25,147 bases of DNA. Source: a virus. Both the position numbers and the translations under genes were made by a program. The notes under the pieces were generated by a model. It had not been told where the DNA came from. It saw only the letters and a program-made list of their open reading frames with translations, and did no database searches. This document shows, piece by piece, positions 2 to 17,889 of the stretch. Each line of letters opens with the position of its first letter. The stretch's first letter is position 1. The DNA lies in IMG/VR virus record IMGVR_UViG_3300008117_004642, positions 1-25,147 of that record; one strand, written 5' to 3'.

Positions 2-1555
2 TCAGTGGGTGTAAGTAATAATGTAACATATGGTTGGGGACTAAACAATGCAGGTCAATTAAGTCAAAACAATACCATTGCACGTAGCAGTCCTGTAGTT
101 ATTAACTCAGGCACTACTTATAATAGATTAAGTGCAGGGGTTAGTTCAAGTGCTGCGGTGAGAGCAGATGGTTTAGCTTTTGTTTGGGGTTTAGGCACAA
201 GTGGACAATTAGGTGATGATCTTGCAATCTCAAGATCAAACGCCGCACAGTTAGGTACAACAACACGCACAGTACAAAGATTAGGTAATCCTACAGTTGT
301 AAATGAAACACTAAGTTGGACAAGTGTAGCAGCAGGACAATCATTTAGTTTAGCAACTGATAATTTAAACAGAGCATATGCTTGGGGCGTTAACAATTTA
401 TTCCAATTAGGTCAGAACACAACAATTACTGCAACACGTAGTAGCCCAACACAAGTAGGAGGATTATTTAGTTTCTCATTAGTTAATGCTGGATTAAGTC
501 ATAGTATGGGATTAAGCCTTTCTGGTAACCCTTTAGTAGATGGAAGCTCATATAATGCTACTATTACAACTGGTGGAAGTCCTGCTTATAATTATTCAAA
601 CATGCCGTTCCCAGGAACACTTTCAGGAAGTTTTGATGGCCTAGCAGGAACAATAATAGTTGCACCTAACAACGTAAATCAATATGATATTACTACAGGT
701 ACTTTTACAATGGAATGTTGGGTTTATCCAACACAGTCTAATTATGCAACCATTGCACCAATTATAAGTCATAACTATTATAGGCAATTAGGAATTGGAA
801 CAGTTGTTTGCAATATGTTGTGTTGTTTAGGTGATAAAGTGCAATTTTTTGCAGAACAAAGTAGTAATGAAGTATACACGACAGTAAGATTAATAGAGAC
901 AACATTTACAGTAAATGTTTGGACACATATTGCTGTTTCTGTAAATTCTTCAACCGCAACATTTTACAAAGATGGGGTTTCAATAGGATCAGGTAATACC
1001 ACAATATCAAATACTTTTAATGGGTTGAGAATAGGAAATGCTGCAAATCAAAATGTATCAGTATATCCAAAATTCAAAGGTTTAATAAGCAATGTAAGAT
1101 TTGTAAAAGACATTGCTGTATATACAGGTAATTTTGCTCCTCCCACACGACCAATAACAGCAAATCAAGTTGCAGGAACTAATATTGCAGCTATTACAGG
1201 CACACAAACTTCCTTAGTATTATATTCTAACCTTGCTGCAAGTAATCAGCTTTATGCTTGGGGCAGTAGTGCTTCAGGACAAATAGGTGACACAGCTACC
1301 ATTAACCGTTCAAGCCCAACGTTAATTGGTAACGCTGCAACACTGAACACACTTGTTAATATACCTACAAAACTTGATGATAATAGTTGGATAGCTGCAA
1401 GCGCCGGAGCAAGTCATACAGTAGCTATTAGAAGTAACTTTACTGCCTTCGCTTGGGGATTAGGTACAAGTGGACAGTTAGGTAATATTGCATCAGTTAC
1501 AAGAAGTAGTCCAGTTCAAGTAGCAGTGATAATTTATTATATACATGGGGCTTAG
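2..1555 (+). CDS. Giant RCC1-repeat/LamG adhesin-like phage protein, upstream fragment (5' end outside window, 3' end frameshifted)
   Basis: This frame is open from the first bases and has no convincing start, so the gene continues upstream; the GTG at 5 is just the first possible codon. It carries RCC1 propeller repeats (W-G-x5-G-Q-L-G cores near 185-213, 384-414, 1256-1286 and 1454-1482). A LamG/concanavalin-like domain at about 524-1240 has the usual marks: F-T-M-E-C-W-V-Y-P-T, W-T-H-I-A-V, Y-K-D-G, then S-N-V-R-F-V-K and Y-T-G-N-F. RCC1 repeats form seven-bladed propellers and LamG domains often bind glycans, so a receptor-binding or fibre role is likely but inferred. After R-S-S-P-V-Q-V (ending at 1522) the frame degenerates and stops at 1555. 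The repeat pattern resumes one frame over, from 1525. This is therefore the front part of the same gene as the next entry, not an independent protein. Confidence 0.8.
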   Translation, partial: SVGVSNNVTYGWGLNNAGQLSQNNTIARSSPVVINSGTTYNRLSAGVSSSAAVRADGLAFVWGLGTSGQLGDDLAISRSNAAQLGTTTRTVQRLGNPTVVNETLSWTSVAAGQSFSLATDNLNRAYAWGVNNLFQLGQNTTITATRSSPTQVGGLFSFSLVNAGLSHSMGLSLSGNPLVDGSSYNATITTGGSPAYNYSNMPFPGTLSGSFDGLAGTIIVAPNNVNQYDITTGTFTMECWVYPTQSNYATIAPIISHNYYRQLGIGTVVCNMLCCLGDKVQFFAEQSSNEVYTTVRLIETTFTVNVWTHIAVSVNSSTATFYKDGVSIGSGNTTISNTFNGLRIGNAANQNVSVYPKFKGLISNVRFVKDIAVYTGNFAPPTRPITANQVAGTNIAAITGTQTSLVLYSNLAASNQLYAWGSSASGQIGDTATINRSSPTLIGNAATLNTLVNIPTKLDDNSWIAASAGASHTVAIRSNFTAFAWGLGTSGQLGNIASVTRSSPVQVAVIIYYIHGA

Positions 1556-1611: not shown

Positions 1612-4600
1612 GTGTCACCAACAACTATTGCAAGTACAGCTTGGACAGAACCTACATTAATAGATTCTTCTAGTTATACTCAAATTGGTGCAGGTAATAG
1701 TAATTCTTTTGCAATTGCTAGTGATGGAACTGCATATGTTTGGGGGCTTAATACATCAGGTCAATTAGGTTTTAGTGATACTATAAGCAGATCAAGTCCA
1801 ACTGTATTTAATAAACCAACTGTAATAGGTTATAGTTGGAAACAAATTGTACTTGGTTATGGTGATGCAGACTATACTGGCTCAATAGGAGCAGATAAAA
1901 GTTTATATCTTTGGGGAAATAATCAAAGAGGTACGATAGGTGATAATTCAACTATAAGCAAATCAGCCCCAGTATCAGTAGCGCAAGACGCTACAACAAA
2001 TATAAATTTTGCCGTACCAACAAGGTTGTTTGATAATTATAGTTTTAGTCAAATAAATGCAGGAATAAGTTATTCGTTAGCAGTAAAATCAAACGATAGT
2101 GCAATGTTTGCATGGGGACAAAATACTTCAGGTCAATATGGAGATGGTTCAGTAGTTAATATTAGTGCTCCAGTAATTGTAGGTCAAAGTCCAATAAGTG
2201 CTGATGCAGCATTAGCAGTATTAACTATTACAACACCGAGTGGCGGCCCGAAGGCAACATTTGATAGTCCGTTTGCTAGTGGTTCTTATAATATGATAAC
2301 CTACGGTGGCAGCGTATATTTTAATGGAGGTTCCAGAGGATTAATTGCAGCAGAGACAACAACTAATATTTTTTCTGGAATATTTGCTTCCCTTGAAGTT
2401 TTCTTTAAATTAGATGTGTTAAATGTTGACCAAATTTTTGTTGCTCAGGATGCCGGGGGCGCAACGAATGCACAAATATTCCAATTTGGAGTAAACGCAA
2501 ATAATAAGTTATATTTTACATACTTTACCACTAGTTCAAGAGCATCAATAACAACCCTCACTTCGGTAAACACAATTAATGTAAATACATGGTATCATGG
2601 ATTAATAACTTATGAAAAGAATTCAATCGTATTAACAGATTATAGCAATTATGAAGCAGCGTTATCCTATACTTTCCCGCAAGTTTCTACTACTGTAATT
2701 CCGACATCTGCTGAAATTTCAGGGTACTTTGATGGTACAGTCAATACGATTGTTGAAGCCCCTAATACAGATAATAGATTTGATTTTGGTACAGGCGCAT
2801 TCACAATGGAATGTTGGTTCTACCCAACATTAGCAAGCTATCCAAGTAGAGGTTGGAGTCTTTTAAGAGTAGGAACTTATAATGGATCTGAATACGGTAT
2901 CGCAATAACTGTTTTTGGTGCAAATGTAAGGATGGCTTGGACTATTCCTAATTCTACTGGTAGTACCGCAACTGCTGAACCGTTCGTTCAAAATCAATGG
3001 CAACACGTTGCTGTAGTGCGTAGCGGATCGGTATTAAGTTTTTATTATAATGGCACTTTAGCTGGCACACAAAGTGGCAGAGGACAAAATATATCTACTA
3101 TAGGAGGTGCTGTAATTGGTGGAGGATATGCAGCTAATGGTTCGACAACTCTTTCTTATCCGTTCCAAGGTTATATTAGTAATGCACGTATAGTTAAGGG
3201 TGTTGCTGTTTATACAGGAAACTTTACTGTACCTACCCCCTTATTGACAGTAACACAAAGTGCTGGTACTAATATTAGTGCGATCACAGGTAATGAAACT
3301 TCATTATTAACATATACAATATCGTCAGGTGTAAGTAGTACAGGATATTTACGATTATTTTTAAATGGAAATTTAGAAACTAGTGGAGCTCCTGTTGCAA
3401 TCTATACCGCACTTGACAGAGCAACCGGTATAGGATCTACGAACAGTTCTATACAAAATCCATTGTACGGTAGGTTAAGCAATCTAAGAATGGTTAAAGA
3501 TAGTATACCAGCAGATTATGATACGGATATTACAGTTGGTATCACTGATCAAAGTACGTATGCTTCAACTATACAAAATGCAGGAGCAACCTTTACTACA
3601 AGTTCACCGATTCCTTTTGTAGGTGCTGCTAGTGCGTTGTTTAATGGTTTTGGTAGCTATTTACAAATATCTAATAGTGGTAATAAATTTGATTTTGGGA
3701 CAGGTGACTTCACATGCGAAGGTTGGGTATATGCAACTAGTGAGGTAAGTAATTTAACTGGTCCATTTAGTTTTGGTAATTACAATACTGGAGTAAGCGG
3801 AGTTCCATATCTTTCAATAAATGGATATCTTGGAAAAGTAGCTGCTTATAGTAACATAACTGGAAATACAGGTGGCGGCAATTACTTGTTTGGACCTACT
3901 TGGAATATTAATACTTGGTATCATTTTGCTATAGTAAGAAGTAGTGGAGTTTTATATTTTTATGTTGATGGAATATTTATTGACAGTTTAATTCACACTG
4001 CAAACTATACAAGTATACCTGGCACAAGAATTGGTGCTGGCGATGCCACTGGATCAACTTGGAGAGCCGGATATTATTTCCCAGGGTATGTATCCAATAT
4101 CCGTATCGTTAAAGGAGTAGCTGTATATACAGGTAATTTCACAGTACCAACTAGTCCATTAACAGTAACACAAAGTGCAGGTACAAACATAAGTGCAATT
4201 ACAGGTAATGAAACATCACTCTTGACTCTTACTAATCCTAGTAGTATAAACACCGGACCTGTTAATAGTATCTTTACTGTACCAACAAACTTGCTAACAT
4301 CTACTAGTGAAAACACTACACCTGAAAATGTTGTTTACTTAGGCTTAAGATCGGTACCAGAATATACAGTAAGCAATGTTGTCGCTACAGGAGCAACGAC
4401 GAACTTCTTAAACAGTGATATGATATTTTACAACACTGGACTTAACAGTGTAGCACAATTAGGTATTAATACAACTATTAATCGTTCAACACCAGTTCAA
4501 CTTGGCGATAATACAATTTTCAATGGTATTAATACTGGTTTTGTGAGTCCATTAATAGCAACTGGATTACCCGGTAGCTGGGCACAGATAAGTGCAGGAA

Positions 4601-7600
4601 ATTCATACAGCGTAATCAGAGATAATGTTGGCGTAGCATATGCATGGGGATTTAACACAAGTGGTCAGTTAGGCACGGAAAATCTTATTGCAACACGTTC
4701 TATTCCAACTGTTGTTGGACCAACTACAGGTGTCACTGTTATAGATCAAAGCATATTTGCAAATATAGTTACTGGTGTAGGAACACAAGTTGACACTGAT
4801 GTAATACCTACAAGTGGCACTATAAGTGGATTATTCAATGGCATAAACGACTATTTAAGATGTGATGCTGCATTATCTACCTTTACAACTAATACAGATG
4901 AATTTACAATTGAAGGATATGCGTATCCTACAAGTTATACTGGATATACAACTGGTAGATTCATAATTGGTATTAATAGTATTGCAGGGGCGAATAATAA
5001 TTTATTAATAGGTGCAGATAGGCTTTACTATAATAATACAGTTGCTAATGGCGATAACATACCGTTAAACACATGGACACATTTTGCTGCTACATTTGAT
5101 GGAGTAACCTTTAGATATTTTATAGCTGGGGTAGAAGTTTATTCAACTGGTAGTAACCCTAATTTTGTGCTTAGCGATTGTGTGTTCTTAATTGGAACAG
5201 AGGCTGACAGTAGTAATGGGGCTGGATTAAGTAATTTCTTCCAAGGATACTTGTCAAGCATTAGAGTGACTCCTCAAGCTTTATATACAGGAGCATTTAC
5301 ACCCCCAACTGGTATACTTACAACAACAAGCGTGGGTACTTCTGGACCAAATGTTGCAACTAGTATTGAAGAAAATGTAACCTTCTTAATATATACCACA
5401 CCATCATCTGTTTCTGCACCTATCATACCTGAATTTAATGATATTCAAGCTGGATTTAACACTAGTGTTGGAATACAATCAGATTCATTATTATATACTT
5501 GGGGTGCAGGCACAGTTGGACAATTAGGAGTAGGTACTGCAATAAGTAGATCAAGTCCAATATTAGTTGGTGCTGATGGACAAACATTAAACACCTACAC
5601 TAATAGTCCAGTACAAGTTACAAATGCAAGTAACTATACACAAGTTTGGGCTGGTCAAAGCTTTAGCTTAGCAAAAGATACTTCAGGTAATGTTTATGGT
5701 TGGGGATTAGATACTTCAGGACAACTAGGATTAAATGTTGTAGCATCCCGTTCAAGTCCTGTGTTATTAGCAGCAAGTTCACCTTATGTGTTCACAGATA
5801 AAAGTGCATACGTTCAGACGATCACTAATGTTAATTCTTCCGTAGGTGTAGGACTGGCATTAATACCTTTTGTAGGATCTACTGCAGCGTATTTTATAGG
5901 TAATGCAACAAGAGCTGGTTTAAATTCATATCTTACTGTACCAACTACAGAAAGATTCCAATTTGGTACAGGCGATTTTACTGTTGAATTTTGGATACGA
6001 AAAGACACCTCATATCAAGCCGGCACAATAATGGCGTTAAATACTGCATCTTTAGGAAATTGGGCTGTTATAATGAGTTCTAGTTTCCTCTTTTGGCAGA
6101 ATGGGTATAGTGTCAATTCATTAGGATCTGGTGTTAATATAGATGCGTATTTGTCTATTAACACTTGGTCCCATGTTGCAGTTGTTAGAATTAGTAACTT
6201 TACTAACATATATGTAAACGGTATAAGTAGAGATAGTTTCACTGATAACCAAAATTACAATGGTGGGGGTATACTTAATATAGGAAGTACAAGCTCCCCT
6301 AACTATGGACCACTAGAGGGATACCTAAGTAATTTAAGAATTGTAAAAGGTGTGGGTGTTTACACAGGTACATTTACGCCACCTAACTCACCGCTACAAA
6401 GTTCACAGTCATCAGGTACAAATATCCAAGCGGTAACTTTAGGACAAACAAGTTTACTAGTTTTCAATATTCCATCATCAATAACCACTACTTCAGGTAC
6501 AACTTATACAAACTATTTTGTAAATTCTACAGCTACAGCAGCAATTGACACAACCGGTTTGTTATATATTTGGGGAGACAATTCAGCTGGTCAGTTAGGA
6601 TTAAACAATATAATTAATAGATCAAGTCCTACTATAGTTGGTGCAGGTAATTTTATTAACACAGGAACACGTAGTCCAGTTCAAGTTAAGTTCGGGTCGC
6701 CTAATAGTTGGTCTAGTGTAGCTGCAGGCAAATCATATAGTTTAGCAGTTGATGATGCAGGATCATTGTATGCATGGGGATTAGGCACAAGTGGACAATT
6801 GGGCCTAAGTGATATAATATCACGCTCATCACCGACCTTAGTTGGTGTTAACTTTACTGTTCTTGATTTAAGTGGACAAAATAATATTATCACTAGAAAC
6901 GGTAGTAGTTTTTCTACAACTGTTATCCCAACAGCAGGCTCAGTATCAGGATATTTTAATGGAATAAGTGATTACTTAAGAATTGATACAGCATTAGACA
7001 TATTTACTACAACTACTGATCAGTTTACTATTGAAGGTTATGTATATCCAACTAAGTTTGGTGAATTTTTTGATGCGAGTAGCTATTACTCTACAATAAC
7101 TGAAAGTTCAATGTCATATAGTGCTACAACAGTTCCTATGATAGGAGCTGCATCAGGATATTTTAGTGATGGATATTTTGCTGTAGCACCAACAAACACA
7201 GAAATTTTTGATTTTGCATCTGGCAATTTTACAGTTGAATGTTGGTTCTATATCGAAGGTAACAGTTTAACCGATAATCAAGGGAACAGAACAGCAACAC
7301 TGTTTTCAGTAGACAAAAGAAGTTTACCATTTTTAGATGATGGTTGGGGATTACTTATAAATGGAGATAGTTCTATAACAGGAACAGCGATTGCGTTCTT
7401 AGCTAGGAATGCAGGAGTTGCAACTTTCTTAACGTACACTGCAACTATAACGCAACAAATATGGCACCACGTTGCTGTGGTAAGAATTGGCAATTCACTA
7501 ACGATTTATTATGATGGTAGTAGTGTCGCTCAAAACAATAGTTGGACAACAACAGTAGTTAACAGCGGAGATAACTTACGAGTAGGCAGGCAGTTAGATG

Positions 7601-10600
7601 CAGATTATGTAAGAAATTTCTACGGATATATATCTAATGCTAGAGTAGTAAAAGGAATAGGAGTGTATACAGGTAACTTCACAGTTCCTACAAGCCCACT
7701 AACAGCTACTCAAAGTGCAGGAACTAATATTAATTCTATAAGTGGAACAGAAACAGTATTTTTATCATTGACTACTGAAGCAGCATCAATTTCAGGCGCT
7801 GCAAATGAATATTTTGTAGGTGTTAACTCGGCTGCAGGTGGTGAAAACACAGTAGGATTAGGTAACACTGGATATTTTTGGATGGGAGGTGTTGCTAATT
7901 TAAGATATTATTTCCCAATTAATACTTGGACGCATTTTGCATTAACCTTTGATTCAACACAAGGTACTCCTATTAAAGCTTTTGCAAATGGTATTCAGGT
8001 CGAAGAATCTACCACTGCCTCAACCACTGCCCTAGCCGATTGTACTTTCTTAATAGGTGCAGAAGCGGACAGTCCTAATGCAGGTGGATTAGGAAATTAT
8101 TACACTGGTTATCTTTCTAATCTACGTGTTGTTAAACAATGTTTATACACAGGTAATTTCACACCTCCTACAGGTATATTGACTGATTCAAGTGTTGGTA
8201 CTAGTGGTGCCAATGTTGCAGCTAGTTTAACAGGTACAGTGTCATTACTGACGTACACAACCCCTGCAAGTATAAGTGGAGGAGAACCAACTTATTTTAG
8301 TACAGTGGCGGCAGGCGATGGATACGCAGGCGGAATAGCAAACGATGCTTTATTGTATACTTGGGGTCTAAACACTAGTGGACAATTAGGACTTGACAAC
8401 GCTATCAGTACAAGCAGTCCAATACTAGTTGGTAATCGTCTTAACAGTAATACAAAGAGTCCGATATTAGCTGCATATGGTAGCTGGGCAACTGCAAGTG
8501 CTGGTGTTAGTTACAATCTTGCTATACAAGAGGATGCTACATTATGGGCATGGGGAATTAATAATGTTTATCAATTAGGACTCGGTGACATTATTACAAG
8601 ATCAAGCATTGTTCAGGTAGGAAGCGGAAGTATTGCATTTACTGACTCAAGCACAAATGCGTTTACGATATCAGTAAATGGTGCTCCATATATGGTGAGT
8701 ACAGAATCGCCTTATGCAAATTATCCTTATGATGTAGGTACGTATGGAGGCAGTGCATATTTTGATGGGGCAGATGATTATCTTTATATTACTGATGCAG
8801 TAGCAGGCACAAGTCTACAAATGGGAACAGGAGATTTTACTATTGAGTGTTGGATTTATTCTATCATAAGTCAACCAACCAATAGCGGGGTATTCAGTAA
8901 AGGTTCTCAGGCTGGATCAGGGTTTACACTAAACGTTTCAGCTACATCTATTGCAGTAAATGGGATAAGTTTAAGTAGTGCAAATACCATAACATTAAAT
9001 GTTTGGCATCATGTAGCTCTTGTAAGATATTCAGGTACAGCATATTTATACGTTGATGGCATTAGGCGTGACAGTGTACCAGATAGTCAAAACTTTAATC
9101 AAACTAATGATTTTAAGATTGGTCAGAGTAGAACCACTGGCAATTTTAATGGTTACATAAGTGACTTCCGTGTAGTAAAAGGCACAGCAGTCTATACTGA
9201 TGCAACCTATACAGTCCCAACTGAGCCTTTAACTGATGTTTCAGGTACAAATTTACTGACAGTAAGATATATTGACACAAGTTCAACAAATGCTTATGTA
9301 GATGTATCAGCAGGAAACAGTACTTCTGCTGCAATTAGAGTTAATAATTTACTATACACATGGGGGTTAGGTACAAGTGGACAATTAGGTGATAACTCAG
9401 CCGTAACGAAATCATTACCTACTCAAGTAGGAACAAGTAGTTGGAGTATTGTACCACGTAGTGGTAGTGTACACATGATAGGTTCTCAAATTGATTATTT
9501 ACTTTATGGATTTGGAAATAATGCGCAAGGACAATTAGGCACTAATACTGTAACAAACAGAAGTAACCCTATATTAGTAAGAGGCGTAAACGTTGTAACC
9601 AATTCTCCAACATTAGTTGAATCACAATGGGATGAAGTAAGTGCAGGGTTATCTTACACTGCTGGTATTTCAAGTACTAATCTATATACTTGGGGATTAA
9701 ATAGTTCAGGTCAAATAGGTGATGGCACAACAATAACAAAATCAAGCCCAACATTAATTGGTACTGCAGTTACAGTGACGGATGCTAGTGCAAATGGAAT
9801 TGCCATAACATTAAATAAAGCAGCAGCAATCACTACAAATAATATACCTTTCCCAAATAATACAATAGCTGTTTCATTGAATTTGACTAAAACAGGTGGT
9901 CAAAAAGGAAATTCTGATTACATTAGCTTCCCAACTAGCGCAGCAGTGACATGGGGAGGTTATGCTAATTATACTATTGAATGTTGGATTTATATAACAG
10001 GATATGGCGGCGTCGCCTCAACATTGTTAAGTGTAGGTACAGGTGGCTCAGCAACCTATGGCAGATGGGTAATTAGAAATGACGGATCAATTTATTACAG
10101 TCCAGGAACAGGAGCTTGGGCTTGGAATGATGCAACTATAGTTTCTACTGCTGCAGGTGTTGTGGAACTAAATGCTTGGCGACATGTTGCCATTGTAAAG
10201 GAAGGAGCACAGGTATCTCTCTATTACAATGGTAATAGAGAAGCTTATGACGCTACAAATACATTTAATGCTACTTCAACAGGAACGGTCTTTATAGGTT
10301 CTAATTATGACGATTGGAACGGACTTGGTGCTTATATCAAAGGTTATATTAGTAATTTTAGAATGACTTCTGCAGCCCTATACTCAGGTACAACTTACAC
10401 AGTTCCAACAAGTATATTTACAGTAGATAATGATACACAACTACTCATAATGGGAGAAGCTAATTTTTCAGCCCAATACAACGAAGTATTCACAGGTAGC
10501 GCAGCAACCTATGCAATACGTACCGATGGTAATTTCTATGCATGGGGATTAGGAACTACAGGTCAAGTAACTGGTCATATGTTAGCAATAAGTAGAAGTA

Positions 10601-12270
10601 ATCCAAATCAAATAGGAAATAATTATATCAATACTAATGTAAGTAGCCCTGCATTAATCGGAACAGGCAGTTGGAGTCAAGTTAGTGCAGGCATGAGTGC
10701 TAGTGCAGCAATTAGAAGCGATGGAAAATTATTTGTATGGGGCCGTGCAAGTGAAGGTCAGATCGGAAATAGTTCAACAATACAAAGATCAAGTCCAGTA
10801 CAAATTGGAACAGAAAGTTGGACTACTGTAAGCCTAAGAGAATACCATACTGCAGCTATAAACACAGCAGGAGAGTTGTATACTTGGGGTCAAAATGTTA
10901 TTGGTCAATTAGGATTAACGAATGTTAACGCTGCAGGAGATAAAATTAGTAGAAGTAGTCCGGTGCTTGTAGGATCAGCCTACAGTATCACTGATGTAAG
11001 TGGTCAAAGCAATATAATTACAAGAGTTGGTACTACATTTACTACAACAAATGTTCCTGTTGTTGGCTCTGTATCAGTGAACTTTAATGGAACAACTGAT
11101 TATCTAAGAGTTGATACTGCATTAGATATTTTTACAGTAAACACTGATGTGTTTACTATAGAAGGTTATATTTTCCCTACTTCTGGCGCATCAACTTTCT
11201 TTTTAGGAATAAACGGTGCTACAAGTGGTAGTAATATTGTGGTATTTGGACCAACTTCACAAACTTATTCAGCAGGTACAAATGTAAATTTAACTACATC
11301 CTTCCCACTTTCTACTTGGTCTCATTTCGCAGTTTCTTTTGATGGGGCTACTGCAAGATTTTTTAACAATGGCGAAATCGTTTCAACAGGCGCTGGCGTT
11401 CCAGGAACACTAGCAAATTGCGTATTACTTTTTGGGTGTGAAGCAGATAGTGCAGGTGCAGGAAGTTTAGGTAATTTCTTCTCAGGCAATTTATCTAATT
11501 TAAGAATTGTTAAGCAATGTTTATATTTTGGTGCATTTACACCGCCAACTGGTATATTAACTGATTCAACAGTAGGCACTTCAGGTGCAAATGTTGCTGC
11601 AAGCTTAACAGGTACGGTTTCTCTACTTACACTTACAACAGAGGCTGCAACAATTAACGGTGGAGTACCTGTGTATTTTAGTGATGTATCTACCGGATCA
11701 TCTACAACTGGTGCTGTAAGATCAGATGGATTGTTATTCATGTGGGGTAGCGGCACACGTGCTGAATTAGGCAATAACAGTTTAATAGATCGTTCAAGTC
11801 CAGTGCAGGTAGGACCTGTGGGTATAGGAGCATCAAATACAAGTTATACATCTGTCAATGCAGGTTATTTCTATTCAGGCGCAATAGGCAGTAACGGATT
11901 ACTATATATGTGGGGCTTTAATACCGCCCAAACTAATTTCCCTTCAATTTGGTATAATGCAACTGCAAGATCAAATCCAACTCAAATAGATGGAGTATAT
12001 GCTACTACAGCAGCAGCTACTAAGGTGCCAATTAGAAGTGGTAATAGTAGTTGGACGCAAGTTGAGGCTGGAAATAGTTTCTCATCAGGTTTATATTATA
12101 AAACTGCTGGACAAAATGGGTTATTGTACACATGGGGGCTTAATAGCATAGGTCAATTAGGGTTGAATGATACAGTTAATCGTAGTAGTCCTGCTCAAGT
12201 TGGTGTTAATACTTACTTGACAACAACAGTTGGATCAAGTAACGCAGGCGCAATAGGTAAGGCTACATAA
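1612..12270 (+). CDS. Giant RCC1-repeat/LamG adhesin-like phage protein, main fragment (3552 aa)
   Basis: The frame is open from 1510 and already reads as an RCC1 repeat from 1525 (D-N-L-L-Y-T-W-G-L-G-T-T-G-Q-L-G), so the GTG at 1612 is not a natural start; no ribosome binding site precedes it. About 20 more RCC1 repeats follow, usually two or three in a row, with LamG-like domains between them at about 4720-5418, 5780-6490, 8634-9285, 9770-10460 and 10972-11650. Two compound LamG units, at 2186-4340 and 6847-8276, contain further LamG domains inside them. Sequence is rich in Ser, Thr, Asn and Gly with almost no Lys or Cys, typical of secreted or virion fibres. There is no signal peptide or membrane segment. 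The family is known from large virion-associated proteins; adsorption to a host surface glycan is the best guess. The C-terminus after 12205 has no recognised anchor or autoprocessing domain. Confidence 0.85.
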   Translation: MSPTTIASTAWTEPTLIDSSSYTQIGAGNSNSFAIASDGTAYVWGLNTSGQLGFSDTISRSSPTVFNKPTVIGYSWKQIVLGYGDADYTGSIGADKSLYLWGNNQRGTIGDNSTISKSAPVSVAQDATTNINFAVPTRLFDNYSFSQINAGISYSLAVKSNDSAMFAWGQNTSGQYGDGSVVNISAPVIVGQSPISADAALAVLTITTPSGGPKATFDSPFASGSYNMITYGGSVYFNGGSRGLIAAETTTNIFSGIFASLEVFFKLDVLNVDQIFVAQDAGGATNAQIFQFGVNANNKLYFTYFTTSSRASITTLTSVNTINVNTWYHGLITYEKNSIVLTDYSNYEAALSYTFPQVSTTVIPTSAEISGYFDGTVNTIVEAPNTDNRFDFGTGAFTMECWFYPTLASYPSRGWSLLRVGTYNGSEYGIAITVFGANVRMAWTIPNSTGSTATAEPFVQNQWQHVAVVRSGSVLSFYYNGTLAGTQSGRGQNISTIGGAVIGGGYAANGSTTLSYPFQGYISNARIVKGVAVYTGNFTVPTPLLTVTQSAGTNISAITGNETSLLTYTISSGVSSTGYLRLFLNGNLETSGAPVAIYTALDRATGIGSTNSSIQNPLYGRLSNLRMVKDSIPADYDTDITVGITDQSTYASTIQNAGATFTTSSPIPFVGAASALFNGFGSYLQISNSGNKFDFGTGDFTCEGWVYATSEVSNLTGPFSFGNYNTGVSGVPYLSINGYLGKVAAYSNITGNTGGGNYLFGPTWNINTWYHFAIVRSSGVLYFYVDGIFIDSLIHTANYTSIPGTRIGAGDATGSTWRAGYYFPGYVSNIRIVKGVAVYTGNFTVPTSPLTVTQSAGTNISAITGNETSLLTLTNPSSINTGPVNSIFTVPTNLLTSTSENTTPENVVYLGLRSVPEYTVSNVVATGATTNFLNSDMIFYNTGLNSVAQLGINTTINRSTPVQLGDNTIFNGINTGFVSPLIATGLPGSWAQISAGNSYSVIRDNVGVAYAWGFNTSGQLGTENLIATRSIPTVVGPTTGVTVIDQSIFANIVTGVGTQVDTDVIPTSGTISGLFNGINDYLRCDAALSTFTTNTDEFTIEGYAYPTSYTGYTTGRFIIGINSIAGANNNLLIGADRLYYNNTVANGDNIPLNTWTHFAATFDGVTFRYFIAGVEVYSTGSNPNFVLSDCVFLIGTEADSSNGAGLSNFFQGYLSSIRVTPQALYTGAFTPPTGILTTTSVGTSGPNVATSIEENVTFLIYTTPSSVSAPIIPEFNDIQAGFNTSVGIQSDSLLYTWGAGTVGQLGVGTAISRSSPILVGADGQTLNTYTNSPVQVTNASNYTQVWAGQSFSLAKDTSGNVYGWGLDTSGQLGLNVVASRSSPVLLAASSPYVFTDKSAYVQTITNVNSSVGVGLALIPFVGSTAAYFIGNATRAGLNSYLTVPTTERFQFGTGDFTVEFWIRKDTSYQAGTIMALNTASLGNWAVIMSSSFLFWQNGYSVNSLGSGVNIDAYLSINTWSHVAVVRISNFTNIYVNGISRDSFTDNQNYNGGGILNIGSTSSPNYGPLEGYLSNLRIVKGVGVYTGTFTPPNSPLQSSQSSGTNIQAVTLGQTSLLVFNIPSSITTTSGTTYTNYFVNSTATAAIDTTGLLYIWGDNSAGQLGLNNIINRSSPTIVGAGNFINTGTRSPVQVKFGSPNSWSSVAAGKSYSLAVDDAGSLYAWGLGTSGQLGLSDIISRSSPTLVGVNFTVLDLSGQNNIITRNGSSFSTTVIPTAGSVSGYFNGISDYLRIDTALDIFTTTTDQFTIEGYVYPTKFGEFFDASSYYSTITESSMSYSATTVPMIGAASGYFSDGYFAVAPTNTEIFDFASGNFTVECWFYIEGNSLTDNQGNRTATLFSVDKRSLPFLDDGWGLLINGDSSITGTAIAFLARNAGVATFLTYTATITQQIWHHVAVVRIGNSLTIYYDGSSVAQNNSWTTTVVNSGDNLRVGRQLDADYVRNFYGYISNARVVKGIGVYTGNFTVPTSPLTATQSAGTNINSISGTETVFLSLTTEAASISGAANEYFVGVNSAAGGENTVGLGNTGYFWMGGVANLRYYFPINTWTHFALTFDSTQGTPIKAFANGIQVEESTTASTTALADCTFLIGAEADSPNAGGLGNYYTGYLSNLRVVKQCLYTGNFTPPTGILTDSSVGTSGANVAASLTGTVSLLTYTTPASISGGEPTYFSTVAAGDGYAGGIANDALLYTWGLNTSGQLGLDNAISTSSPILVGNRLNSNTKSPILAAYGSWATASAGVSYNLAIQEDATLWAWGINNVYQLGLGDIITRSSIVQVGSGSIAFTDSSTNAFTISVNGAPYMVSTESPYANYPYDVGTYGGSAYFDGADDYLYITDAVAGTSLQMGTGDFTIECWIYSIISQPTNSGVFSKGSQAGSGFTLNVSATSIAVNGISLSSANTITLNVWHHVALVRYSGTAYLYVDGIRRDSVPDSQNFNQTNDFKIGQSRTTGNFNGYISDFRVVKGTAVYTDATYTVPTEPLTDVSGTNLLTVRYIDTSSTNAYVDVSAGNSTSAAIRVNNLLYTWGLGTSGQLGDNSAVTKSLPTQVGTSSWSIVPRSGSVHMIGSQIDYLLYGFGNNAQGQLGTNTVTNRSNPILVRGVNVVTNSPTLVESQWDEVSAGLSYTAGISSTNLYTWGLNSSGQIGDGTTITKSSPTLIGTAVTVTDASANGIAITLNKAAAITTNNIPFPNNTIAVSLNLTKTGGQKGNSDYISFPTSAAVTWGGYANYTIECWIYITGYGGVASTLLSVGTGGSATYGRWVIRNDGSIYYSPGTGAWAWNDATIVSTAAGVVELNAWRHVAIVKEGAQVSLYYNGNREAYDATNTFNATSTGTVFIGSNYDDWNGLGAYIKGYISNFRMTSAALYSGTTYTVPTSIFTVDNDTQLLIMGEANFSAQYNEVFTGSAATYAIRTDGNFYAWGLGTTGQVTGHMLAISRSNPNQIGNNYINTNVSSPALIGTGSWSQVSAGMSASAAIRSDGKLFVWGRASEGQIGNSSTIQRSSPVQIGTESWTTVSLREYHTAAINTAGELYTWGQNVIGQLGLTNVNAAGDKISRSSPVLVGSAYSITDVSGQSNIITRVGTTFTTTNVPVVGSVSVNFNGTTDYLRVDTALDIFTVNTDVFTIEGYIFPTSGASTFFLGINGATSGSNIVVFGPTSQTYSAGTNVNLTTSFPLSTWSHFAVSFDGATARFFNNGEIVSTGAGVPGTLANCVLLFGCEADSAGAGSLGNFFSGNLSNLRIVKQCLYFGAFTPPTGILTDSTVGTSGANVAASLTGTVSLLTLTTEAATINGGVPVYFSDVSTGSSTTGAVRSDGLLFMWGSGTRAELGNNSLIDRSSPVQVGPVGIGASNTSYTSVNAGYFYSGAIGSNGLLYMWGFNTAQTNFPSIWYNATARSNPTQIDGVYATTAAATKVPIRSGNSSWTQVEAGNSFSSGLYYKTAGQNGLLYTWGLNSIGQLGLNDTVNRSSPAQVGVNTYLTTTVGSSNAGAIGKAT
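2623..3339 (+). other. LamG domain nested inside another LamG domain (first insert of compound unit 2186-4340)
   Basis: A complete LamG domain (F-D-F-G-T-G-A-F-T-M-E-C-W, W-Q-H-V-A-V-V-R, Y-I-S-N-A-R-I-V-K-G, Y-T-G-N-F-T-V-P-T) sits directly after the W-Y-H-G-L-I-T-Y-E-K-N strand of an outer LamG that began at about 2186. The outer domain resumes at about 3340 with Y-L-R-L-F-L-N-G-N-L and R-L-S-N-L-R-M-V-K-D, the parts the first half lacks. Boundaries are good to roughly ten codons. Confidence 0.7.
3505..4254 (+). other. LamG domain nested inside another LamG domain (second insert of compound unit 2186-4340)
   Basis: After the outer domain's S-N-L-R-M-V-K-D-S, a second full LamG domain begins at I-T-D-Q-S-T-Y and runs through F-D-F-G-T-G-D-F-T-C-E-G-W to N-E-T-S-L-L-T-L-T. 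The outer domain then appears to finish with V-N-S-I-F-T-V-P-T-N-L-L-T, which matches the normal Y-T-G-N-F-T-V-P-T-S-P-L-T tail of the family. The split into three pieces is inferred from this pattern of missing and recovered motifs. Confidence 0.6.
7063..7800 (+). other. LamG domain nested inside the LamG domain spanning 6847-8276
   Basis: The outer domain starts as usual (Y-F-N-G-I-S-D-Y-L-R, Q-F-T-I-E-G-Y-V-Y-P-T) and is cut after that strand. A full LamG domain follows (F-D-A-S-S-Y-Y to L-T-T-E-A-A-S-I-S). The outer domain resumes at 7801 with N-E-Y-F-V-G-V-N-S-A-A-G-G and W-T-H-F-A-L-T-F-D. The intact relatives at 4720-5418 and 10972-11650 have these two halves joined directly. Confidence 0.75.
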
Positions 12271-12330: not shown

Positions 12331-14046
12331 ATGCATCCAATTGATCAATTATTGGCTTATCAACTAGAAGGAAAACAAAAAGAAGCTTGGGCGATATCCG
12401 AGCAAATGGAAAGTGAAGGTCCAGACAACTGCAAGGACCCATCAGGAAAAGTAAATCCAGAAACATGGATACGTCATAGCTTCAATCGCGGCTGGTTTTT
12501 GTTACAACAAGGCGATTATCAAAAAGGTTGTCAGTTATTAGAGAATGGAAGGTTCATTAGTGTATATGGAAGTGGACCATTAAAAACTGATGCACCTATC
12601 TACAATCCACAAGAGCATGATATTAAGGGTAAATCAATCATTATATCATTGGAAGGTGGTTATGGTGATGAAATTATTCATGCACGTTTTGCACAAAGTT
12701 TTAAAGAGCAAGGCGCTGATAAAGTTTATCTAGCAGCAGCGCCTGAAATGGTGAGCGTGTTTAAACGAATACCTGGTGTTGATGATGTAATATTACGCAA
12801 TGCTGCGCACACAGTGAAACATGATTATTGGGTACCTGGCTTTAGTGCAGGATGGGTAGCCGGTCACACATTTGATAACTTCCCAGGCAAACCATATATG
12901 AGTCCACTAGACGCAAGCGTGGAAATATGGAAGAATTTAATTAATAGTGATAAGATTAAAATTGGAATTCGTTGGGCAGGAAATCCTAAGTTTGAACATC
13001 AACAGTTTAGAAAGTTTCCTGAAGCTTTCATGACTAATCTTGTGAAGTATAAAGAAGTACAAATTTATAGTTTGCAACGTGATCATAACATAATTCAATT
13101 ACCTGAAGGTGTGACTGACTTACAACATTTCTTGTTAAGTTGGGAAGATACAATGGCATGTATTGCTAACTTAGATATCGTTATTACTAGTTGTACAAGT
13201 ATTGCACATATTGCTGCAGCAATGGGTAAAGAAACATGGGTCACACCTCCTATACTACCTTATCATACATGGGCGTATGGAAGTCCTGAAAATGATCGTA
13301 GTCCTTACTATGAATGTGTAAGATTGTTTAGACAAGAAGAAGCAGGTAAATGGAATACAACATTTCAAAAACTATACCGTGCATTAGAAGAAAAGTTTAA
13401 TTTAGAGCATGTTGAGATGCCAAATGAAGATAAACAATTAAAACGTCTTAATTTAGGGTGCGGACTCAAAAAGTTTGATGGATACTTAAATGTTGATAGT
13501 AGTGAACTAGTAAAACCAGATGAAGTTGTTGATTTAAATGTTACTCCTTGGCCTTGGCGTGACAATGAATTCGGACATATTGTTGCCAAAGACATATTAG
13601 AACATTTAGGTGATACACCTGATGACTTTATTAAAATTATGAAAGAGATGTATCGTGTCAGTGACAATGGTGCTGTATGGGAAGTACAAGTACCACATTG
13701 GCGTTGTGATGTTGCATTAGATGATCCTACACATAAACGATTGCTAACGTTGGGTTCGTTTATGCTGTTAAATCAAAAGAAAATGTTTGAAAGACTAAAA
13801 GAAGATAACAGCGATTCATTATTATCATTTGAACATGATATTGATTTAGAAGTTTGTGATGTAAACTTTGATTATTTACCACACTGGAAAGAACGACTTA
13901 AAAAGGGTGAAATAACTGAAGATGATTTGAATTATGCATTAAACACGTTTAACAATGTCGCATTAAGTATGCGTGTGTTAATTCAAGTTAATAAACCAGG
14001 TCGTGTATCATTGGGTGAACTAGAAGCTTATATTGCGAATAGATAA
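12331..14046 (+). CDS. Glycosyltransferase (GT9/OGT-like, TPR-type N-terminus) fused to a SAM-dependent methyltransferase
   Basis: The first 80 residues include a TPR-like helical pair (G-W-F-L-L-Q-Q-G-D-Y-Q-K-G). A GT-B fold transferase follows: S-L-E-G-G-Y-G-D-E-I-I-H-A-R-F at about 106-120, a Rossmann-like strand K-I-G-I-R-W-A-G-N at 210-218, and the sugar-nucleotide region with S-C-T-S-I-A-H-I-A-A-A-M-G-K at 287-300. This resembles TPR proteins with a GT9 (heptosyltransferase-like) or GT41-like domain. From about 370 there is a class I methyltransferase: L-N-L-G-C-G-L-K-K-F-D-G-Y at 373-385, an acidic D-L-N-V, and D-I-L-E-H-L at 421-426. The product would be cytosolic. The acceptor is unknown. 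It is the first gene after the late promoter and has a good ribosome binding site. Because ADP-heptose genes lie downstream, heptose is a plausible donor sugar, but this is inferred. Confidence 0.75.
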   Translation: MHPIDQLLAYQLEGKQKEAWAISEQMESEGPDNCKDPSGKVNPETWIRHSFNRGWFLLQQGDYQKGCQLLENGRFISVYGSGPLKTDAPIYNPQEHDIKGKSIIISLEGGYGDEIIHARFAQSFKEQGADKVYLAAAPEMVSVFKRIPGVDDVILRNAAHTVKHDYWVPGFSAGWVAGHTFDNFPGKPYMSPLDASVEIWKNLINSDKIKIGIRWAGNPKFEHQQFRKFPEAFMTNLVKYKEVQIYSLQRDHNIIQLPEGVTDLQHFLLSWEDTMACIANLDIVITSCTSIAHIAAAMGKETWVTPPILPYHTWAYGSPENDRSPYYECVRLFRQEEAGKWNTTFQKLYRALEEKFNLEHVEMPNEDKQLKRLNLGCGLKKFDGYLNVDSSELVKPDEVVDLNVTPWPWRDNEFGHIVAKDILEHLGDTPDDFIKIMKEMYRVSDNGAVWEVQVPHWRCDVALDDPTHKRLLTLGSFMLLNQKKMFERLKEDNSDSLLSFEHDIDLEVCDVNFDYLPHWKERLKKGEITEDDLNYALNTFNNVALSMRVLIQVNKPGRVSLGELEAYIANR

Positions 14047-14729
14047 TGTTAAAACTAGATTATAGTTATGATCTAAGCATTGAGTCTACCTACATTATAA
14101 CAATTAAGAATCATTCCGTAAGTGAAGGTTTGTCAGCAAGGTGTCAACAAAGCCTTGCTGCACTTAATATGCCTTACAAAGTATGGGACGCATTTGATGG
14201 TACTAGTGGACAGATCAAACTGCCAGATCACGCACAAGGTAAAAGTTGGTATAGTTGGCTAAAGTGGGTAGATAAAGAACTTAGTATTACAGAGGTTAGT
14301 GCTGCACTTAGTCATATCAGTTTATGGGCGCATTGCATAGAGTTAGATAGACCTATTATAATTTTAGAGCATGATGCAATTATGATTAAAGAGTTACGTG
14401 ACCATCCTGTTATAGGTTGTATTCACTACTTAGGTGCTATTGAACAAGCAAAGAAGGGTTGGCCTGTATTAGTTACACCTCCCCATGCAACTAATGGTCA
14501 CAACTATCATTTTATTTGTAGGGCACATGCATATTCTATTGATCCATGGGTAGCTAAGAATTTATTATCACAAGTATTAAAATATGGCATCTGTGAAAGC
14601 TTAGATATAATGATTAGAAGTGATATCTTCCCTGCAGTGCAAATGGGATTGTATGCATATGATGAACCTGATTTACCAAACACAACAATAGTTGGAAGAA
14701 AAAAAACTATTGATGGTAAGGAACGCTAA
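14046..14729 (+). CDS. Glycosyltransferase family 25-like protein
   Basis: The 227-residue protein has the layout of GT25 transferases of LPS oligosaccharide synthesis. An N-terminal strand S-T-Y-I-I-T-I-K is followed by S-L-A-A-L-N-M-P-Y-K-V-W-D-A-F-D-G (36-52), then the conserved block I-T-E-V-S-A-A-L-S-H-I-S-L-W (81-94) and the nucleotide-sugar/metal segment I-I-L-E-H-D-A (105-111). That segment is E-D-D-A in most relatives; the first Asp is a His here, which could alter metal use. The start overlaps the previous stop (TAATG), so translation is probably coupled. Length is close to the family norm. Donor and acceptor cannot be read from the sequence. Confidence 0.75.
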   Translation: MLKLDYSYDLSIESTYIITIKNHSVSEGLSARCQQSLAALNMPYKVWDAFDGTSGQIKLPDHAQGKSWYSWLKWVDKELSITEVSAALSHISLWAHCIELDRPIIILEHDAIMIKELRDHPVIGCIHYLGAIEQAKKGWPVLVTPPHATNGHNYHFICRAHAYSIDPWVAKNLLSQVLKYGICESLDIMIRSDIFPAVQMGLYAYDEPDLPNTTIVGRKKTIDGKER

Positions 14730-16027
14730 TGTATTCTATTGTTATACCACACTTAAGTAATAGCAGATATATTGATAAATGTATTGAATACATTAAGAAG
14801 AATAGTAAATATGATCCTGAAATAATTCAAATAGTTGACGAAACTGATGTCTACTATGCCTTTAACAAAGGTGTTTATCAAGCAAAATATGATGTAGTTG
14901 TTTTGATGAGTGATGACATGTTCGTTAGCAAACATTGGGATGAGGTGTTTCCAATGTATGTTGCAGAAGATACATTTTTAACTATGCATGTAGTTGAGCC
15001 TGAGCCAGGAAAAATGAATGGCCCACAATGTATAGAATTTGATTGCGGCGATGACCTAACTAACTTTGACTACGATAAGTTTCAGCAATTTGTAGATGTT
15101 AACAAAGCATACGTGCCTGAAATTGAGTTTAATAAAATTGGTTGGTACATGCCATTTGTAGTACACCGTAAAAGTTTCGTGTCATATCCAAACATTGACA
15201 AATTCCCTTTATACGCCAATGATGTGACACTTTTTCATTCAATTTTACCTAATTTAGGATATAAATTTGCATTAGTTAACAGTTTCGTGTATCATTTCCA
15301 AAGAAAGAGCACCAAACAACTTTACCAAGAGAAAATTATGAAAAAACGTGCTATATTTACATATAGTAATCATCAAATAGAAGATAAGATATCTTACCTA
15401 CAAAAGCAGATGATTGCTAAGTTTAACAAAAATAAGTTATGCAAATACGAATATTTGCATTATAAAAAACCAGACGGGGAAATGACACCAGACGAAGTTA
15501 TTACGTATGGGCTAGAAAAACTTTTTTACGAAGATAATTATCACACTATACTGATGCTTGATATTGATTGTGTGCCATTAAGTGAACATGCACTAGAATA
15601 TACATTTCAACGTGCAGAAGAAGGTGTTCTAATTGGTAACGTGCAGCGCAGTAATCATTTAGAGAATGGTAAACACATATATCCTGCTCCTAGCTGTATT
15701 GCATTGACTAAAGAAATGTACGAAAAATTAGGTAAGCCTAGTTGGAAACCAAACGCACGTAGCGACATAGGTGAAGAGTTAGCTTATGAAGCAGAAAAGC
15801 AAGGTATAGAAATGGAAATGTATATGCCAAGCAAATATGAAGAAATTCCATATTGGAATACAGGAGAACGTAAACCTTGGGACTTACGTGACGGTGACCC
15901 ACAATTTGGTATCGGCACTACGTTTGTAGACAAGGACGGTAATGAAATGTTCTATCATTTATTCCAAAGTAGATTGAATGTATTCAATCACTTATTCTTC
16001 TTAAAATGTGCGAGTGTCATGCTATGA
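14729..16027 (+). CDS. Two-domain glycosyltransferase (GT2-like plus a second DxD-containing domain)
   Basis: Residues 1 to about 200 look like a GT2-type GT-A fold: Y-S-I-V-I-P-H-L at the N-terminus, A-F-N-K-G-V at 44-49, and the metal-binding region V-V-L-M-S-D-D at 57-63. Residues 204-432 form a second unit that starts at an in-frame ATG (15338) and contains L-M-L-D-I-D-C (274-280), a likely DxD motif, and P-S-C-I-A-L-T. I do not recognise that second unit's family exactly. An AAGAG stretch at 15327-15331 sits six bases before the internal ATG, so the second unit could also be made separately. The gene starts in a TAATG overlap with a strong AAGGA site (14718-14722) and ends in an ATGA overlap. 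It looks like a fusion of two transferases acting in one glycan pathway. Confidence 0.65.
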   Translation: MYSIVIPHLSNSRYIDKCIEYIKKNSKYDPEIIQIVDETDVYYAFNKGVYQAKYDVVVLMSDDMFVSKHWDEVFPMYVAEDTFLTMHVVEPEPGKMNGPQCIEFDCGDDLTNFDYDKFQQFVDVNKAYVPEIEFNKIGWYMPFVVHRKSFVSYPNIDKFPLYANDVTLFHSILPNLGYKFALVNSFVYHFQRKSTKQLYQEKIMKKRAIFTYSNHQIEDKISYLQKQMIAKFNKNKLCKYEYLHYKKPDGEMTPDEVITYGLEKLFYEDNYHTILMLDIDCVPLSEHALEYTFQRAEEGVLIGNVQRSNHLENGKHIYPAPSCIALTKEMYEKLGKPSWKPNARSDIGEELAYEAEKQGIEMEMYMPSKYEEIPYWNTGERKPWDLRDGDPQFGIGTTFVDKDGNEMFYHLFQSRLNVFNHLFFLKCASVML

Positions 16028-16704
16028 CAAGTACATACGATATTTTTTACAAGTTAAAGTTACTTAGTAAAAAGTGGAATAATTATTTTGAAGTTTACGA
16101 TAAAATTCTTAATCCCTATATAGGTAAAAATCCTAAAATGTTAGAGATTGGGGTCGCACACGGTGGTAGTGTTGAATTGTGGCTCAAGTATTTTGACAAT
16201 GAAGTTGACCTTCATGCAGTTGACATTAACAAAGATTTTCTAGATTATAAATTTGACGATGCTAAGGTAAATTATGCTTGTGTGGACCAAAGTAGTTTGG
16301 AGCATTGGAACGCATATTTAAGTAGCCATTCAAATTTTGATATCATAATAGATGATGGTAGTCATGATAGTGATCATCAAATCATTACTTTATTAACACT
16401 ATTTCCAATTTTAAATGATAATGGTATCTACGTTATTGAAGATACACATACTAGTTATTGGCCAGAGTGGGGCGGTGGTTTACACAAAAAAGGAACCTTT
16501 ATTGAATTTGCTAAACAACTTGTTGACTTATTACACGCACCTCACATAAGAGAAAGTGCGCCACCTGCATTAGAAAAAGCATTTAAAAATTTAAAGTCAG
16601 TAACCTTCCATAATAGTATGGTTGTACTTGAAAAAGGAATAACAAGACCATCTACAGAGGCGGTAAGTACTGCTAATAGAAACCCTAATTTTACTTGGGG
16701 ATAA
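16024..16704 (+). CDS. Class I SAM-dependent methyltransferase (TylF/CmcI-like)
   Basis: The start is placed at the ATG at 16024, which overlaps the previous stop as ATGA. A possible ATG at 16006 would add six unconserved residues. The motif I SAM-binding loop is M-L-E-I-G-V-A-H-G-G-S at 39-49, followed by an acidic H-A-V-D-I-N at 64-69. The pair I-I-D-D-G-S-H (108-114) and V-I-E-D-T-H-T-S-Y-W (137-146) are typical of TylF/CmcI-like sugar or small-molecule O-methyltransferases and of rhamnosyl-type methyltransferases in polysaccharide clusters. Its place among glycosyltransferases suggests that it methylates a sugar or sugar chain. Length (226 residues) fits. The substrate is unknown. Confidence 0.75.
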   Translation: MTSTYDIFYKLKLLSKKWNNYFEVYDKILNPYIGKNPKMLEIGVAHGGSVELWLKYFDNEVDLHAVDINKDFLDYKFDDAKVNYACVDQSSLEHWNAYLSSHSNFDIIIDDGSHDSDHQIITLLTLFPILNDNGIYVIEDTHTSYWPEWGGGLHKKGTFIEFAKQLVDLLHAPHIRESAPPALEKAFKNLKSVTFHNSMVVLEKGITRPSTEAVSTANRNPNFTWG

Positions 16705-16705
16705 C

Positions 16706-17497
16706 ATGGTAGATTTGCTTGTAGTTTTACAAAGTCACAGCCTAACAAATAATCAAAAACAAATTACTAGGTACATGTGTCAAGATAAAAGCGAGATTAG
16801 TTATCGCTGTATAAAATCATTAGTAAACACATTAAATCATTGCAAAAAAGAAAAGCCAAATGAAGTTAACATAAAACTTGTAGTGTTAGATGACCATAGT
16901 GATGAACCTTTTCTTAAAAGATTGGATTCTATTTTGTCTGAGTGTAATTTTCAATATGAATTGCGACATTTAGAAACACGTGGAATTATGCCAAGCATTC
17001 TTGCATGTTATGAATATGGCAGAGATAAAGGCAAAGATTTAGTTTATTTTGCACAAGATGATTATCTTTATTTTGAAACGTGCATGTATGAAATGCTAGA
17101 TGCATATTTTAGATTTAGTGAAAAATCTAAATTACCTGTATGTATATATCCATTTGATGACCCATATAGATATGGGATACCTCCTGACAGACAGCCATTA
17201 GTATCTGTTCATTTAGGAATCAAACGGCATTGGAGAACAGCATTTGGTACTGCTAGTTGCTTTATGGTAGATCATCCGACATTGGTGAAAAACTTTGATT
17301 TATTTGACGCCATGGGAAAACACGCTGTAGATAGTGTGATGGAAGACGAAACTATAAATAGATTGTTCAATGAAAGAGGATGTCTACTATTCACTCCTAT
17401 TCCAAGTATAGCATTACATGCTCAAGCAGATACAGAAAAAGATCCATACATTGATTGGAAAGCATTATGGGATCAATTTGAAGAGGGTAAAATATGA
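16706..17497 (+). CDS. Glycosyltransferase family 2-like protein
   Basis: The protein (263 residues) starts two bases after the previous stop and has a GT-A style layout. There is a strand with an acidic cluster, K-L-V-V-L-D-D-H-S-D-E (57-67), as in GT2 proteins, and a second site, L-V-Y-F-A-Q-D-D-Y (112-120), matching the DxD-type metal and nucleotide-sugar site. It lacks any membrane segment. A conserved-looking E-D-E-T near residue 216 could supply the catalytic base. It ends in an ATGA overlap with the nucleotidyltransferase gene, so the two are probably translated together. The TATAAATA at 17353-17360 inside this gene encodes T-I-N-R and is probably incidental. Donor and acceptor are unknown. 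Confidence 0.65.
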   Translation: MVDLLVVLQSHSLTNNQKQITRYMCQDKSEISYRCIKSLVNTLNHCKKEKPNEVNIKLVVLDDHSDEPFLKRLDSILSECNFQYELRHLETRGIMPSILACYEYGRDKGKDLVYFAQDDYLYFETCMYEMLDAYFRFSEKSKLPVCIYPFDDPYRYGIPPDRQPLVSVHLGIKRHWRTAFGTASCFMVDHPTLVKNFDLFDAMGKHAVDSVMEDETINRLFNERGCLLFTPIPSIALHAQADTEKDPYIDWKALWDQFEEGKI

Positions 17498-17889
17498 AAA
17501 AAGTTTTTGTAAATGGTACATTTGATTTACTGCATGAGGGTCACATAGCCTTGCTAGAATATGCAAAAACTTTAGGTGAAACTTTAGCAGTTGCAATTGA
17601 TAGTGATGAAAGAGTTAAACAATTAAAAGGTCCTGATAGACCTATACAAGATCAAAAAGAAAGAACAAACGCCCTAATAGCATTGAAAGCAGTCAATGAC
17701 GTTTATATATTTGATACTGATGATGAATTAGAGTGGCTTGTTTCAGTTCATGATGTAATGGTAAAGGGCAGTGACTACAAAGACAAACCAATAATTGGTG
17801 AAAGTGTTTGTAAAGAATTAGTGTTTTTTGATAGAATAGATGGATATAGCACAACACAAAAAATACAAGATATTGCTGATAGGGGATAA
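17494..17889 (+). CDS. hldE (C-terminal domain): Heptose-1-phosphate adenylyltransferase, HldE C-terminal-domain type
   Basis: This is a short nucleotidyltransferase (131 residues) with the signature V-N-G-T-F-D-L-L-H-E-G-H at 6-17, whose H-x-G-H motif binds nucleotide. The rest follows the E. coli HldE C-terminal domain closely: L-K-G-x-x-R-P (44-50), D-V-M-V-K-G-S-D-Y-K, then the end motif D-G-Y-S-T-T-x-x-I. The last element and the overall fit favour ADP-heptose synthesis over the related glycerol-phosphate cytidylyltransferase TagD. The reaction would join D-glycero-beta-D-manno-heptose 1-phosphate and ATP to give ADP-heptose. In E. coli this domain is fused behind the kinase. Here it is a separate gene placed before the kinase. 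A strong site (AAGAGGG, 17481-17487) precedes the ATG. Confidence 0.8.
   Translation: MKKVFVNGTFDLLHEGHIALLEYAKTLGETLAVAIDSDERVKQLKGPDRPIQDQKERTNALIALKAVNDVYIFDTDDELEWLVSVHDVMVKGSDYKDKPIIGESVCKELVFFDRIDGYSTTQKIQDIADRG

Follow-up and report, generated by a model that had tools for sequence, protein, structure and literature searches.

Does the giant protein encoded by this viral record contain a LamG domain that is itself broken by other LamG domains, or simply a row of neighbouring units? The record, from an uncultured virus, is 47,417 bases long, and the window, meaning the whole stretch of DNA analysed here, is its first 25,147 bases. The initial annotation had described a LamG domain split into three by two insertions of its own family. 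We think it very probable that two complete LamG domains interrupt another LamG, each in a turn between strands. The giant RCC1-repeat protein in which they lie is most likely a virion surface adhesin.

The Giant RCC1–LamG Gene and Its Surroundings

The gene is represented in the window by two frames, the upstream one carrying an inserted module of its own:

1612..12270, + strand: giant RCC1 and LamG frame, 3552 aa from GTG, open back to 1510
2..1555, + strand: upstream part of the same gene, with RCC1 repeats and one LamG; joined to the later frame in the relative L010
530..1246, + strand: LamG inserted in an RCC1 repeat; the same place is empty in L010 (around 7167)

The 1612–12270 frame probably forms the 3′ portion of a gene whose start lies upstream of the window. 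In L010, a contig from another metagenome (IMGVR_UViG_3300043448_000382), the counterpart of both window frames is a single frame of more than 6800 aa. Near 1510 the window lacks about 58 bases compared with that contig, an out-of-frame difference by which the frame at 2–1555 ends and the second, open from 1510, continues. This is either a deletion in the population or an assembly error.

According to Pfam, RCC1 repeats and LamG domains are spread along the whole 3552-residue protein, with the RCC1 repeats (PF00415, 362.9 bits across 14 stretches) flanking the LamGs. The protein had been described as LamG inside LamG inside an RCC1 propeller; RCC1 repeats do surround the LamGs, and the support for this outermost layer reaches the level of the repeats only. 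The gene is a patchwork of repeated, similar modules, in which no long identical repeats were found. The module at 530–1246 is clearly present in one relative and absent from the other, by gain or loss, and since it is missing from that spot in L010, modules come and go in this gene.

Directly downstream of the giant gene, at window positions 12331–20183, is a cluster of sugar genes, identified by eye with few checked against PHROGs. By the same inspection it encodes glycosyltransferases, a sugar epimerase, and a heptose-type nucleotidyltransferase and kinase as separate overlapping genes. The cluster could modify the giant protein or the host surface. Ribonucleotide reductase genes follow at 20299–23720, and the remainder of the record (24000–47417, L103 and L104) includes, by eye, a frame for an IscU-like iron–sulphur scaffold, several radical-SAM-like frames and two peroxiredoxin-like frames. 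Judged by eye, this metabolic gene content is unusual for a phage record.

One LamG Domain in Three Pieces

The region in question is divided as follows:

2197..2619, + strand: outer LamG piece A, residues 196–336, profile positions 3 to ~124 (LamG profile, Pfam; pLDDT mostly 60–90)
2620..3336, + strand: insert 1, a complete LamG, in the outer-domain turn between strands WYHGLITY and LRLFLNG
3337..3507, + strand: outer LamG piece B, residues 576–632, profile positions ~126–177 (LamG profile, Pfam)
3508..4266, + strand: insert 2, a complete LamG with linkers, in the outer-domain loop after strand LSNLRMVK
4267..4353, + strand: outer LamG piece C, residues 886–914, profile positions ~182–195 plus the probable last strand; it lengthens the spliced match

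The order of motifs and the coordinates given in the initial annotation hold in the frame of the 1612–12270 ORF, while a frame read literally from 2186 is out of phase. The borders shift somewhat. The first insert, placed at 2623–3339, is corrected to about 2620–3336, and the second, placed at 3505–4254, is corrected with its linkers to about 3508–4266. The outer domain, which had tentatively been ended at IFTVPTNLLT, runs instead to about 4353, with ENVVYLGLRS as its probable last strand.

These assignments come from a LamG profile of 195 positions made solely from LamG domains of other viral contigs and rebuilt from 375 domains, leaving out the window, L010 and L009. In the uncut protein it matches residues 208–339 (profile 3–128, piece A), 358–548 (profile 16–194, insert 1), 561–629 (profile 109–175, piece B) and 651–853 (profile 6–194, insert 2). 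The match to B overlaps slightly into insert 1, and once this is trimmed B starts at profile position ~126. The outer domain is divergent, with 36.7 bits for A, 25.1 for B and 3.7 for C when scored separately. C is thus almost free of signal by itself and too short to be detected alone, yet when the three stretches are spliced in silico (residues 192–336, 576–632 and 886–916), they give a single continuous match of 73.8 bits over profile positions 3–195 of 195. Permuting the order to BAC yields two separate matches. The Pfam model Laminin_G_3 (PF13385, 151 positions, curated cut-off 27.6 bits) behaves in the same direction: A scores 27.5 bits (positions 19–89), just below the cut-off, and B 12.5 bits (91–142), whereas the spliced outer domain reaches 50.4 bits (19–144), above it. 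Both inserts are complete domains by this model, at 69.1 bits (insert 1, positions 9–142) and 42.2 bits (insert 2, positions 4–142).

The host pieces are therefore complementary, and each complete insert lies wholly within the gap, the arrangement that characterizes domain insertion (A1-B-A2). The initial annotation had set beforehand, as one of the points that could refute it, whether the outer pieces correspond to complementary stretches of a single LamG profile; they do. LamGs without interruption, from many viruses, also align with the spliced outer domain over both of its joins. The best of these is L005 (35% identity, 1e-13, over 17–216 of the 233 spliced residues), and uninterrupted homologues for the sites of inserts 1 and 2 are in general about 25–35% identical. 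No close empty site was found for either insert, and searches of viral and genome contigs yielded no nearer homologue in which the outer domain is uninterrupted.

Structure Prediction and Positions of the Splits

AlphaFold2, run with 77 alignment rows, gave a mean pLDDT of 71, with piece A and both inserts confident. The rows are tandem-LamG proteins, which provide depth for A and both inserts and none for B and C; the latter pieces have pLDDT of about 30 at an alignment depth of about 1 and are not placed relative to A. With the window and L010 alone in the alignment, the pLDDT was 30, the RCC1 part included. Rows built with MAFFT to span the outer domain across its gaps mixed up host and insert when simulated on a second nested case in the same protein (see below). 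The nearest solved folds to A and the inserts are laminin LG4-5 and neurexin, together with other LamG structures. From the sequence matches, we infer that A, B and C would pack into one jelly-roll.

Every split that was mapped lies in a turn between predicted strands, the strands of the inserts being read against the profile. In profile numbering the split points are ~124/126 and ~179/182 in the outer domain, ~66/68 in the second case, and ~79, ~109 and ~142 in the contig G001, discussed below.

Conservation and Selection

The relative L010 is about 66% identical over the region and has both inserts at the same places. The outer pieces are better conserved (A 79%, B 74%, C 72%) than insert 1 (65%) and insert 2 (51%). 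With dS at ~1.0–1.1 for all pieces and inserts, dN/dS is 0.12 for A, 0.18 for B and 0.14 for C, against 0.28 for insert 1 and 0.44 for insert 2. Purifying selection on A, B and C is strong, more so than on the intact inserts.

This bears on the possibility that the region is only five neighbouring units, the outer pieces being either domains in their own right or decayed remnants of LamGs, left behind when repeats recombined unequally. Such an origin would suit a patchwork gene in which relatives differ by the presence of one module, and B and C have no confident structure. However, the pieces are complementary and in order, the insertions in L010 fall at the same places, and other proteins too have complementary halves around complete LamGs. 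Moreover, A, B and C evolve alike and are more constrained than the inserts, with dN/dS below that of the intact domains, which argues against decayed scraps. We regard this explanation as improbable.

Less probable still, to the point of being negligible, is that an assembler misjoined repeat copies and created an apparent interruption. The similar modules within the gene and the frame break near 1510 would invite such an error, but the joins are in frame, no long identical repeats were found in the gene, and the architecture also appears in an isolate genome, that of S-SKS1. Above all, the same architecture in an independently assembled contig at a dS of about 1 argues against a misjoin; L010 refutes it for practical purposes, and we reject it. 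The reading of a single split domain, in turn, is upheld by the retention of both insertion points in the relative, the similar selection on A, B and C, and the uninterrupted homologues that span both joins.

Nested LamG Domains Elsewhere in the Protein and in Other Viruses

The same protein contains a second interrupted LamG, which the initial annotation had missed:

6853..7053, + strand: N-terminal piece of the second interrupted LamG, profile 2–64 (LamG profile)
7054..7797, + strand: insert 3, a complete LamG after strand FTIEGYVYPT; the site is empty in a paralogue at 11152
7798..8331, + strand: C-terminal piece of that same LamG, reaching profile position 193, together with its tail (LamG profile)

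In this second case (6853–8331), residues 1748–1814 and those from 2063 are two halves around a complete LamG, and spliced together they match profile positions 2–193 with 108.7 bits. Around 11152 the protein has a paralogous LamG with no interruption at the corresponding position; FTIEGYVYPT/insert/AANEYFVGVN in the one corresponds to FTIEGYIFPTSGASTFFLGIN in the other.

Among 113 LamG-bearing loci (482 complete domains in 138 frames), nested LamGs were found at 4: the window, the L010 contig, G001 (the contig of L009) and S-SKS1. The figure is rough, as the sample came from similarity searches and hand picking and the parser misses short end pieces. A first survey gave 3 reversed-order control pairs against 6 forward ones. 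Because those reversed pairs were not itemised, the later survey used the gain in score on splicing (33–65 bits) in place of counts. Nesting had been called rare, and at 4 of 113 loci that description stands; it is not unique, given the second case in this protein, the two other environmental contigs and S-SKS1.

In G001 (L100, G001:C1:19500-38200, reverse strand), a frame of 5765 aa has LamG in LamG in LamG, with at least three levels. An N-half at 820–957 and a C-half at 2358–2409 enclose five LamGs, the last of which (1907–2004 / 2236–2323) itself encloses one; the spliced halves score 150.6 and 113.7 bits. Several more half-domains are visible between residues 3113 and 5326, with ambiguous pairing, one C-half fitting two N-halves.

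The cultured Synechococcus cyanophage S-SKS1 provides the isolate case. Its SWZG_00005 product (AGH31518.1), annotated as ‘hypothetical protein’, has a LamG cut in three, with outer pieces at ~21–140, ~366–422 and ~906–960; the first gap holds one LamG and the second two. Like the outer domain of the window protein, the spliced pieces give one continuous match (66.7 bits, profile 27–183), and the order ACB breaks it. It differs from the window protein in its length of 960 aa, in that no RCC1 motifs were found in it, in its other LamG sequences and in its split points, at ~97–105 and ~145.

By the splicing test, about ten other RCC1–LamG frames of viral contigs showed no nesting, though LamGs are present in them. 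Seven giant viral frames of 3600–6600 aa (L149, L102, L110, L112, L119, L143 and L175) have 16–40 RCC1 motifs and LamGs. The PHROGs label ‘regulator of chromosome condensation’ for such RCC1–LamG families is probably misleading. A literature match to RCC1 in prasinoviruses was discarded, since it referred to strain codes and not to the domain. We found no published description of a LamG nested in a LamG in a literature search of partial coverage. Judged by these sequences, the nested LamG architecture is real, rare but recurrent.

Origin of the Inserted Domains

In a tree of 29 LamGs, inserts 1–3, the 530–1246 module, the inserts of L010 and a swapped module from that contig group together (95/92), and both interrupted host domains fall outside this group. 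The topology fits a history in which a single lineage of modules was copied into loops again and again, but the branches are long and other histories possible. No signature of a mobile element was seen at the joins, which were inspected by eye only. A tentative extension, which we rate as possible but doubtful, is that nesting is a route of diversification, in which one LamG donor lineage would be copied repeatedly into the RCC1-repeat and LamG loops of giant phage adhesins, building branched clusters with fast tips on a conserved scaffold.

Proposed Architecture and Function

In the architecture we propose, the chain of the outer LamG, a concanavalin A-like jelly-roll, would be broken twice, each time by a complete LamG in an inter-strand turn. 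The ends of a LamG domain lie close together in the fold, and a whole LamG can therefore sit within a turn of another and leave that domain's fold intact. The product would be a branching group of lectin domains in place of a linear chain. In it the outer domain would serve as a conserved scaffold, and the inserted domains would be outer tips that change faster and probably bind host glycans. The protein as a whole would be large and lie on the virion surface, with lectin domains borne on its RCC1 repeats and, in some cases, on other lectin domains.

PHROG matches are to virion structural and baseplate-wedge families, and the annotation of these relatives makes a virion lectin or adhesin the likely role. 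Laminin G3 domains have been described on tail fibres and other virion parts (jumbo-phage review, PMC7824862). The faster change of the inserts than of their host domain fits host-facing tips, or simply relaxed constraint.

Alternatively, the domain is truly split, and shuffling of modules produced the nesting as a neutral side effect, functionless in a giant protein that tolerates insertions in any loop. The splits fall in several different turns, and most giant LamG and RCC1–LamG proteins do without nesting, as such neutrality would have it. Against it, both insertions have been kept in the relative at a dS of about 1 and the outer domain is the best conserved part, observations with which neutrality is still compatible. 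We give this alternative a substantial chance, though somewhat short of even. Nesting may instead be a means by which phages branch or diversify their binding sites.

Relation to Known Systems and Significance

Besides the S-SKS1 protein, the closest known systems include the tandem-LamG phage virion proteins, among them LamG-bearing cyanophage gp7/baseplate wedge proteins, which have the same LamG family and, by annotation, the same virion context. Their LamGs stand side by side and are not nested at nearly all loci surveyed. Among the fold matches is also the Vibrio cholerae neuraminidase (1kit/6eks), in which ConA-like lectin domains are attached to a beta-propeller. One of its lectin domains is inserted in the propeller; it is an enzyme and is not known to have a LamG within a LamG or RCC1 repeats. 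The jumbo phage phAPEC6 encodes many copies of RCC1 repeats, for which a DNA-organising role has been suggested (PMC7247149). The window protein differs from those RCC1-like proteins in having lectin domains on its repeats, and these suggest a place on the virion exterior.

Domain insertion of the A1-B-A2 type, in which the interrupted domain still folds, is well known, and multi-level nesting has been described in the part of the survey by Schaeffer et al. (2026, PMC13114784) considered here. According to that part, host and insert belong to different homology groups in 65.8% of insertion events, and the insert is usually the smaller of the two; no LamG-in-LamG case is named in it. Compared with the insertions as described there, host and insert in the window protein are of one family and about equal in size. 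A family that serves both as host and as insert, on several levels and in a variety of turns, makes an unusually clear natural experiment on how much a beta jelly-roll can tolerate.

For annotation, the finding is a caution, in that linear domain callers give partial or missing domains for nested proteins. The cultured phage S-SKS1 makes the nested LamGs open to experiment. If the nested lectins bind, phages could multiply and swap binding sites without a longer fibre.
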